Made by a program: the position numbers and the translations under genes
Assembly: GCF_900102375.1 (NCBI RefSeq)
Contig: NZ_FNBO01000004.1
Location: 124,001-188,000 of the forward strand
Direction of reading: 5' to 3'
Length of the DNA: 64,000 nt
DNA from: Halorubrum xinjiangense
Lineage (GTDB): Archaea; Halobacteriota; Halobacteria; Halobacteriales; Haloferacaceae
The notes under the pieces: generated by a model
The model's database searches: none
Told to the model about the DNA's origin: nothing
Seen by the model: the letters and a program-made list of their open reading frames with translations, nothing else
Shown here: positions 3,498 through 38,549 of the stretch, piece by piece
Position numbering within the stretch: position 1 is the first letter of the stretch
How the letters are laid out: each line of letters begins with the position of its first letter

Positions 3498-3883
3498 GAC
3501 TCATCCACCTCGTGACGCTGGATGTAGTTCTCGACAGTCTCACTCGAAACGTGCCCAGCGGTCCCTGCGTAGTAGCCTCTCGCCCATCCGATTTTCTCGC
3601 CGTCATGGTCGGCGTATCGGTGGTTGTACTTGCGCGAGGAGATACCCTTGAACCAGTTGGCGAGGAGCGCTGGTTCGTTCTTGGGCGGGCTACTGACGAA
3701 CAGGTGAACATGGTCCGGCTGTACGGTGAGATCGAGAATTTCGAGGCCCTTGTCGTCGGCAATTTCGTGGAGGATGGTTCGCACACGGTCAGCGACCTCG
3801 TTGACGAGTACCGAGTTGCGATACTTCGGCAACCACACTATGTGGTAGTTGAGGTTGTAAGTCGCGTGCCGTGTGGTCTTCAC
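3494..3883 (-). CDS. tnpA: TnpA, Y1 HUH transposase of IS200 type
   Basis: A 129-residue single-strand transposase of the HUH-Y1 class. Visible: the HUH pair His58/His60 in QPDHVHLFVS and the likely nucleophile Tyr120 in ETVENYIQRH. The N-terminus HATYNLNYHIVWLPKYR is typical of the Transposase_17 fold. These enzymes excise and insert one DNA strand by recognising end hairpins, without target duplication. The length is that of a complete protein. The stop overlaps the start of tnpB by 4 nt. Confidence 0.95.
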   Translation of the reverse strand: MKTTRHATYNLNYHIVWLPKYRNSVLVNEVADRVRTILHEIADDKGLEILDLTVQPDHVHLFVSSPPKNEPALLANWFKGISSRKYNHRYADHDGEKIGWARGYYAGTAGHVSSETVENYIQRHEVDES

Positions 3884-22420: not shown

Positions 22421-23662
22421 AGCTTCCTTGTCAAACAGGAACGTCGATGGCTGTGCCAACCAGCCGTTACTCCTATTCACCGACAGATTCGGTGAACTCG
22501 GAGATACTTTCTGTCGGATGTTCTCAGCGCCGTTCACGTCAGCGTTCGCCACTGTACCGCAGTCGTCGCAGACGTACAACCCACGTTCAACACGGTTCGC
22601 GTCACGTTTGCGACCACAGCACGAGCACGACTTCGACGTGTCCTCCTCGGAGACTTCCTCGACGACAATACCTTCCATCTCCGCCTTGTATTCGAGGAGG
22701 TCGGTGAATCGGTCGAATGCCCACGAGTGTAAGTCGAGATTGCCGTGTTTTCCCCAGTTTTTCGACTCATCAGTGTCATCGTCTTCGCGAATCCCTGAGA
22801 GATCACCCACTACAATCGTTCCAACACCTTCCTCAACACACCGCTGGATGATGTGTTTCGAGAGCGTGTGGAAATAGTGGGTACGACGAGCCGACTTTTT
22901 CTGGTTCAGCCGGGTGGCCTGCTCGGAGTTCGAGTCATCACACCGGGCAATCCGCTTGCTGAAGTAGTAGTCGTCCTGCTTCAGACAGTTCAGCGGATAC
23001 AAATCGCTGTGACCGTCCTCGTAGGCGAGCGCGGCGAAGTTGTTGATCCCGAGATCAACGCCCACCGTCTTCTCACCGGGGGCTTCAGCCACGTCGATCT
23101 CGACCTTACAGACGAAGTGTAGTTTCCATTCCTCACCCGCCCAAACTGTCCGAACCTGTTGGACGTTCTCGACGGTGGAGAGATCAACGTCGGGGCGGGT
23201 TTGGTACTCACAGAGGATGAAGTCCGACCAATACTCCTTGAGGTTCGACCCCTTTGAGAGTCGAACGCGGTTGTACTGGGTATCGAGTTTGAAGCCAGCG
23301 GCTTTGAACGTCACCGTCGAACGCGGGTGCTCCTCGCCGTGTTTGCGGTAGCCGGGCGGGTTCGCTCTCGTATCTCCGTTGCGTCGTTTGCCGTACCAGC
23401 CGTTGAACGCCTCAGCGAGTTCTTGAAGGACTCGCTGACTTGACTGCGAATGTAAGTCATCATAGCGTTCGTGGGTTTTGAGGTACGTGGTGAGTTCGTT
23501 GTGGTTCGGGATATAATCGATTTTATCCCAAATCCGACTACATGTCCACCGTCCGACGTTCCAGAGTTTCGAGGCAGCGAACCCGAGCGAATCAAGGTCG
23601 TCTTGCACTCGAGACTGGTTCCGTATGGAAGCGGTGTAGGTGCGGGTGACGACCTGTTTCAC
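22385..23662 (-). CDS. tnpB: TnpB, RNA-guided nuclease with rearranged RuvC active site
   Basis: A 425-residue TnpB. Asp203 (GVDLGINNF) and Asp375 (NADVNGAENI) of the RuvC triad are present, but the position of the central glutamate is Gly286 (TIVVGDLSGIR). A substitute acidic residue, Glu339 in VSEEDTSKSC, stands where element 1 has Pro319. Such a relocated glutamate is known for Fanzors and a subset of TnpBs. The zinc ribbon CSCCG...CDDC is intact. No frameshift or stop is seen, so the protein should be made and may be active. There is no tnpA partner. Confidence 0.93.
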   Translation of the reverse strand: MKQVVTRTYTASIRNQSRVQDDLDSLGFAASKLWNVGRWTCSRIWDKIDYIPNHNELTTYLKTHERYDDLHSQSSQRVLQELAEAFNGWYGKRRNGDTRANPPGYRKHGEEHPRSTVTFKAAGFKLDTQYNRVRLSKGSNLKEYWSDFILCEYQTRPDVDLSTVENVQQVRTVWAGEEWKLHFVCKVEIDVAEAPGEKTVGVDLGINNFAALAYEDGHSDLYPLNCLKQDDYYFSKRIARCDDSNSEQATRLNQKKSARRTHYFHTLSKHIIQRCVEEGVGTIVVGDLSGIREDDDTDESKNWGKHGNLDLHSWAFDRFTDLLEYKAEMEGIVVEEVSEEDTSKSCSCCGRKRDANRVERGLYVCDDCGTVANADVNGAENIRQKVSPSSPNLSVNRSNGWLAQPSTFLFDKEAGVFAPQERVTS

Positions 23663-38043: not shown

Positions 38044-38224
38044 GGGCGGACGCGACTGTTCTGAAACGCGATCATTCCGATAGAATCTCTGCGGTGGCGC
38101 GTGCCTGCGAGCGGCCGACAGGCCGCGAGCAGCACGCGCGAGGGACGCGGCGACCGCAGGGAGCCGCGAGGCTGGGGAGGCGTGCGGTGCGGTCGCGGTG
38201 CTGTACGGGGGGGACTCAAAGGGG

Positions 38225-38320
38225 CAGCCGCGCGGCCGCCGCAGACGACGCAAGCACCGCAGTGAGTGAGCGAAGCGAACGAACGAGGAGCGCAGCGAGT
38301 GTGCGGCGGCCGCGCGGCTG
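38225..38320. repeat. Perfect 19-bp inverted repeat with 58-nt loop
   Basis: CAGCCGCGCGGCCGCCGCA at 38,225-38,243 and its exact reverse complement at 38,302-38,320. The GC-rich stem would be very stable as RNA or as a cruciform. The loop holds purine-rich GCGAAGCGAACGAACGAGG. Confidence 0.92.
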
Positions 38321-38427
38321 GGGCTTTGGAGGTGTTTTCTGTCGATTCGCTATCAACCATTTATAACTAAGCGGCTGGGGCTTTGGAGGTGTTTTCTGTC
38401 GATTCGCTATCAACCATTTATAACTAA
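38314..38427 (-). repeat. Two identical 57-nt tandem units
   Basis: Units at 38,314-38,370 and 38,371-38,427 are identical; a third (38,428-38,483) keeps the first 23 nt and a TTTATAA near its end. Minus-strand TATA-like boxes are at 38,357-38,366, 38,414-38,423 and 38,471-38,480. Confidence 0.92.
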
Positions 38428-38549
38428 GCGGCTGGGGCTTTGGAGGTGTTCTCCGCCGAACCGGAATGGGTGGTTTATAAGCAGCGGCTGGGGGTACAGA
38501 AGTCCGAAACGACGGTACTGGCAGCTAGTTACGTATAATCGATGGCAGC

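Follow-up and report, generated by a model that had tools for sequence, protein, structure and literature searches.

A dispersed, structured, non-coding repeat between convergent CPBP and NurA genes in Halorubrum xinjiangense

The element at the CPBP/NurA junction

In the window, a stretch of 64,000 nucleotides of the Halorubrum xinjiangense genome, two genes point toward each other: a CPBP/Rce1-like protease (PF02517; 37309–38043, plus strand) and a NurA-domain protein (PF09376; 38550–39848, minus strand). Inspection of the sequence revealed that positions 38090–38484 between them hold three hairpins and three 57-nt tandem units. The left end of the element and motif A (TGCGGTGGCGCGTGCC) occupy 38090–38105 on the plus strand, with GTGG immediately 5' to the P1 foot; bases 7–10, 12 and 14–16 of the motif show no variation among 75 copies from the host's own genome. 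P1 (38097–38139, plus strand) consists of an outer helix (GCGCGTGC/GCACGCGC), a 3-bp variable helix (here TGC/GCA), a GA/GA tandem mismatch and an inner CGGCC hairpin, and its arms covary between copies. Hairpin P2 (38146–38168, plus strand) is formed by CGCGGC/GCCGCG, for which many alternative complementary arms exist elsewhere, and leads into motif B (GAGGCTGGGGAGG; 38168–38180, plus strand), the most widely conserved block, present also in Halorussus, Haloparvum and others. A G-rich linker of variable length follows (38181–38214, plus strand; the distance from motif B to motif C is 37–57 nt in the 75 copies).

Hairpin P4 (38215–38332, plus strand) contains a perfect 19-bp inverted repeat, CAGCCGCGCGGCCGCCGCA at 38225–38243 and TGCGGCGGCCGCGCGGCTG at 38302–38320, enclosing a long GA-rich loop of exactly 58 nt; the stem is prolonged outward via a GGG/GGG internal loop into CTCAAAG/CTTTGGAG. 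Motif D (CTGGGGCTTTGGAGG; 38318–38332, plus strand) is the closing end of P4. Unit 1 (38314–38370) comprises motif D and an AT box, TTTATAA, at 38360 (D+42), unit 2 (38371–38427; AT box at 38417) is its identical duplicate, and unit 3 (38428–38484; AT box at 38474) is 72% identical. The 19-bp inverted repeat, the stems to its left and the 57-nt units to its right had all been described in a sequence-only reading of this DNA, and each was found where that reading had placed it; on the minus strand units 1 and 2 read TTATAAATGG...ACACCTCCAAAGCCCCAGCC, again as reported.

Architecture of the family

The 75 host-genome copies follow one order: motif A opening P1, P2, motif B, the G-rich linker, motif C (CTCAAAGGGGCAG), with which the long hairpin P4 starts, P4 itself, and motif D. 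P1 begins 7–8 nt from the left end, P4 stands before the right-hand units, and the core is about 250–420 nt long. P4 is followed by 0–4 further D units per copy, D-to-D being 57 nt in 77 of 90 cases, and this range backs the local amplification of tandem units that had been proposed. ORFs do run mechanically across the element, but none is kept across copies. No reading frame is conserved across copies of the unit region, which excludes a coding tandem array (57 = 3 x 19). Terminal inverted repeats are absent from the aligned Halorubrum copies, the left end (GCGGTGGCGCGTGCC) not recurring in inverted form at the right.

Two inserted modules of about 50–70 nt were recognized, both with two hairpins, fixed internal sites, a single orientation and near identity between loci. 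Module B (GTGGTTCGAGA-hairpin-TCTCGTCATC-hairpin-CGACAGC) has a single fixed site in the P4 loop and was found at L057, L061, L078, L086, L097, L103, L105, L108, L117, L149, L158, L171, L174 and L196, the last being a copy of the Halorussus type described below. Module C (TCGCCGGCG..CGCCGGCTGCCAGAG-hairpin-CTCGCTG) mostly lies between P1 and P2 after GCGCGAGG; it was found at L055, L056, L060, L071, L072, L075, L107, L151, L158 and L171 and is near-identical in several host loci.

Copy number and distribution

A core pattern of 21 bases, with up to two mismatches allowed, gave 171 matches in the host genome (3.26 Mb) and none for the reversed pattern used as control, a result well outside chance. 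The family therein has at least 171 copies, or one per approximately 19 kb. With the 405-bp query, some 40 copies were scored in the host's own genome at 75–85% identity, many of them full length. Even spacing of copies, considered as a sign of a structural role in the chromosome, was rejected as a reading; an incomplete list from one contig gives a CV of 0.64. An apparent plus orientation of every copy in genome G019 is probably an artefact of listing order.

All 29 Halorubrum genomes of the first search contain the element. Among 194 haloarchaeal genomes sampled, the count is 16–195 in every Halorubrum and 50 in one genus belonging to the same family, whereas occurrence is uneven within a genus from a different family (0, 6, 8, 26 and 102 copies); from named records, Haloparvum, Halorussus, Halosimplex and Halobellus join the carriers. 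Recurrence in Halorubrum, which the sequence-only reading had offered with a BLASTN search as the check, is therefore correct, the search having scored further copies in the host and every Halorubrum tested being positive. Copies of the Halorussus type have the 5' half (P1, P2 and motif B) in common with the others, their 3' half being another hairpin, and they are often whole inverted pairs, which indicates modularity of the family on a larger scale as well.

Searches of phage sequences with the element gave zero matches, and a phage origin was rejected. Matches to plasmids are partial only, and the two compared with annotation both lie between annotated genes. An origin from an SRP or Alu-like RNA, which GCGGTGGCGCGTGCCTG with its presumed resemblance to human 7SL might bring to mind, was rejected, the SRP covariance model matching a single place in the host, the SRP gene itself. 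No published description of the repeat family was found in a literature search whose scope left out many subscription papers. We are nearly certain that the element is a structured non-coding repeat with dispersed copies.

Secondary structure and the strand whose fold is kept

The 3-bp P1 helix takes the forms TCC/GGA, GAC/GTC, TGC/GCA, GGT/ACC and GAT/ATC. Its paired fraction is 0.87 as against 0.51 with shuffled arms, a value reached in none of 1000 shuffles, kinship and module exchange being uncorrected. P2, with alternative complementary arms such as GTCGGT/ACCGAC, GTCAGT/ACTGAC and CGCCGC/GCGGCG among others, and P4 likewise exceeded all 1000 shuffles with the same two effects uncorrected, and RNAalifold of 18 copies revealed six pairs in which both sides had changed, again uncorrected for kinship and module exchange. 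The covariance analysis suggested by the sequence-only reading, carried out by arm shuffling and with RNAalifold, thus shows compensatory stem changes in the hairpin arms. Two-by-two internal loops are of the GA/GA type in 64 of 71 cases in P1 and 20 of 22 in P2 (together 84/93), and the GGG/GGG loop of P4 was seen in 63 cases.

In all 66 copies compared, the plus strand folds more stably than the minus strand, whether RNA or DNA parameters are used, and among the isolated mismatches of P1 and P2, read on the plus strand, 25 are G-T and four A-C. Because of the better folding and the excess of G-T over A-C, the fold that has been kept is that of the plus strand, in the form of either DNA or RNA. 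Terminal loops of the form GNA or GNNA closed by C-G, which are especially stable in DNA, are many and hint at a single-stranded DNA fold; single-stranded DNA and plus-strand RNA predict identical fold statistics.

History of the loci

The site at a single locus varies between species in both presence and orientation. At the CPBP/NurA junction the element is plus-oriented in the host and its near relatives and reversed in other species, and some relatives have no element there, with 17–55 bp between the two stops. At the same junction in genome G187 (locus L175) a decayed copy carries two small inserted ORFs which by eye resemble a toxin-antitoxin pair (SpoVT/AbrB-like and MazF/PemK-like) and are flanked by a GGCTCTGTTGAAA-like repeat. 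Over a stretch syntenic with genome G027, approximately 9 of 11 testable copies are, by our reading, common to both genomes, from which it follows that copies are lost and gained slowly. Neither a clean empty site nor a target could be recovered, the empty sites in G027 being too diverged for exact borders. One orthologous copy in that genome (G027:C1, ~1847000–1848500) is truncated by an insert which includes a gene that looks, by eye, like a helix-turn-helix regulator.

The best identity between any two host copies is 92% and the median best 87%, and the lack of any pair above 92% speaks against a recent burst. At seven shared loci, host paralogues often match as closely as the orthologous copy does (in one example 51 of 65 paralogues are as close or closer). 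Together with the recurrence of the near-identical modules B and C at fixed sites, this fits a trade of hairpin modules between copies by recombination. Such exchange would cause arms to change together while copies stay alike. One shared copy (G000:C4:190326 and G027:C1:1873389) is essentially 100% identical within flanks of 92–95%, which suggests a recent exchange between species.

Position between genes

In the host, whose genes were called with a home-made codon-usage caller, 105 of 105 copies are intergenic, overlapping no called gene, and in other genomes one of 121 copies overlaps one. Convergent junctions hold 36% of the host copies versus 22% of all junctions and divergent junctions 11% versus 22%; elsewhere the convergent share is 44% against 16% (P = 1e-9). 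Between tandem genes the strand of the copies is unbiased (24 versus 31), which argues against a strand-specific role in 3' UTRs.

These figures invite a functional reading, in which the hairpin block would end or insulate converging transcription, or mark a topological boundary, as BIMEs of E. coli do, and would be kept by selection. The convergent excess seen in both data sets, the slow loss across species and the even strand split between tandem genes, which a DNA function independent of orientation would produce, are all consistent with it. Set against these are the relatives which lack the element at the very same convergent pair, the half of the host copies that lie between tandem genes, and a bias that selection against insertions into promoters would explain without any function, and we consider such a boundary role quite unlikely. 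The wider proposal, that haloarchaea in general possess orientation-independent multi-hairpin elements with strictly spaced TATA arrays which would serve as transcriptional or topological boundaries between convergent genes and owe their similarity to module exchange and not to a transposase, is likewise unlikely, if a little less so.

AT boxes and the question of a small RNA

Upstream of host genes the motif RAACG-TTTAT stands most often 29–31 nt before the start codon, and the AT boxes of the units agree with its TATA core. Of the 62 copies with a first box at most 45 nt from motif D, 58 have it exactly 42 nt away, and the distance from the box to the next D is 15 nt in 72 of 75. The spacing fits a start at GAACACCTCC in the minus direction and the same spot in the plus direction. 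The sequence-only reading had pointed to a TATA-like box upstream of an ACACC start; the distance between them is fixed and equals the host TATA-to-start distance of 29–31 nt.

These features would suit a family of minus-strand small RNAs, each unit supplying a promoter and a start at GAACACCTCC and transcription running through P4, P2 and P1 to give RNAs of approximately 200–300 nt. The position of the box is moreover held although the spacer between D and the box is just 59% identical among copies. Counting against such RNAs, the host BRE is missing upstream of the boxes (mean -1.72 bits in the minus direction and -0.31 in the plus direction), starts in the plus direction fit the same spacing equally well, the minus strand is the poorer folder in every copy compared, the bias toward G-T mismatches favours the plus strand, and other species place the box less strictly (at 42 nt in 16 of about 38 box-bearing copies). 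We therefore regard a small RNA family of this kind as doubtful, and of the two possibilities first raised, a small RNA or a mobile repeat, it is the non-coding mobile repeat that is favoured. The AT boxes themselves may possibly act as promoters.

Enzymes that could mobilize the element

No protein in 52 Halorubrum genomes scores over the NF047646 cut-off for RAYT, which one control genome passes. Y1 transposases of any type are absent from seven of eight Halorubrum genomes tested and present in one, and the tested genomes with an element count carry 79–195 copies each. With these numbers RAYT and Y1 transposases were rejected as present mobilizers. The Y1 proteins of the host are of the IS200 type. 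Element ends are not shared by its 29 IS605-type loci (25 TnpB and 4 TnpA), near which lie only three separate copies, roughly what copy density would predict, and a relation to IS605 ends was rejected. Within the window there are an IS200-type Y1 transposase gene (~3515–3862, minus strand) and a match to the sense overlapping transcript family sot0042 (Rfam RF02656; 22324–22509, minus strand), the latter adjoined by a TnpB-type gene at ~22517–22717.

An archaeal REP/BIME family spread by RAYT would account for numerous intergenic copies and for GTGG at the P1 foot in 69 of 75 host copies (GT[AG]G 0–2 nt 5' of a hairpin foot being the criterion used), as at the foot of REP hairpins (PMC6006769), but with RAYT missing from all 52 genomes and with copies of the Halorussus type, judged by eye, not keeping the GTGG, it is largely refuted for present genomes and most improbable.

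Interpretation

The element at the CPBP/NurA junction has the character of an old mobile repeat that lacks a transposase, and not that of a single small-RNA gene. Our preferred reading, to which we give a probability of roughly 0.55, is that it is one copy of a high-copy, modular, non-coding interspersed repeat which is PATE-like, transposase-free and multi-hairpin and which is now for the most part inherited vertically. It would have spread as a transposase-free element recognized as folded single-stranded DNA, in the manner of PATEs; spread as single-stranded hairpin DNA is possible, falling somewhat short of an even chance. At present ectopic recombination would swap hairpin modules between copies which otherwise descend mostly vertically. 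Copies would build up between convergent genes because insertions there do least harm to promoters, and a further cause may be that a multi-hairpin block separates converging transcription. The AT boxes, at their fixed spacing, may serve as putative weak starts of short non-coding transcripts.

Should this reading hold, a structured element without annotation is present in the known Halorubrum genomes in anything from tens to almost two hundred copies. The empty, reversed and decayed alleles at one gene pair would then be natural replicates for studying how transposase-free palindromic repeats spread and persist, the tandem-GA hairpins would be a test case for whether archaea handle them as single-stranded DNA, and the family would offer a handle on how transcription is brought to an end where archaeal genes converge.

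Comparison with known repeat classes

The element resembles the families of Rfam in being conserved, structured and non-coding, but none of them matches it at the gathering cut-off or even at E 5. It is not a MITE, because the Halorubrum copies lack terminal inverted repeats. With the REP, BIME and REPIN sequences that accompany RAYT (PMC6006769, PMC3116915) it has in common high copy number, intergenic position, a GTGG-footed hairpin and, in copies of the Halorussus type, an inverted-pair arrangement; it is much longer (~250–420 nt) and, since its genus is without RAYT, is not assigned to that class. Modules B and C lie inside a larger palindromic element as SMR-A of Haloquadratum does in PATEs, but SMR-A are 110-bp repeats with inverted ends (PMC3119063) whereas B and C are two-hairpin units of about 50–70 nt.

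The closest likeness is to the palindrome-associated transposable elements (PATEs) of Haloquadratum walsbyi (PMC3119063). Both are haloarchaeal and transposase-free, have many heterogeneous copies and deletion derivatives, carry palindromes near their ends (here P1 and P4), and are too short for a transposase, with a core of ~250–420 nt here and a unit region without conserved frame. Neither has terminal inverted repeats, a statement which here applies to the Halorubrum copies, some of the Halorussus type being inverted pairs. Opposite orientation at one position, known in Haloquadratum as 'SwitchRepeats' (PMC3119063), and invasion by smaller repeats are likewise found in both. The present element differs in its three hairpins with GA/GA tandems and its promoter-like tandem array, in palindromes unrelated to the IS605-type loci of the host, in the lack of any Y1 transposase in most of the Halorubrum genomes tested, and in being genus-wide and present in several other genera. 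It is not filed as a PATE because kinship with IS605 ends fails and the empty sites are too diverged to show whether, as in PATEs, insertion leaves the target unduplicated. In Haloquadratum such elements were inserted though nearly all genes of the IS200 type are broken (PMC3119063), and the Halorubrum element, with no enzyme that can be linked to it, presents the same puzzle.
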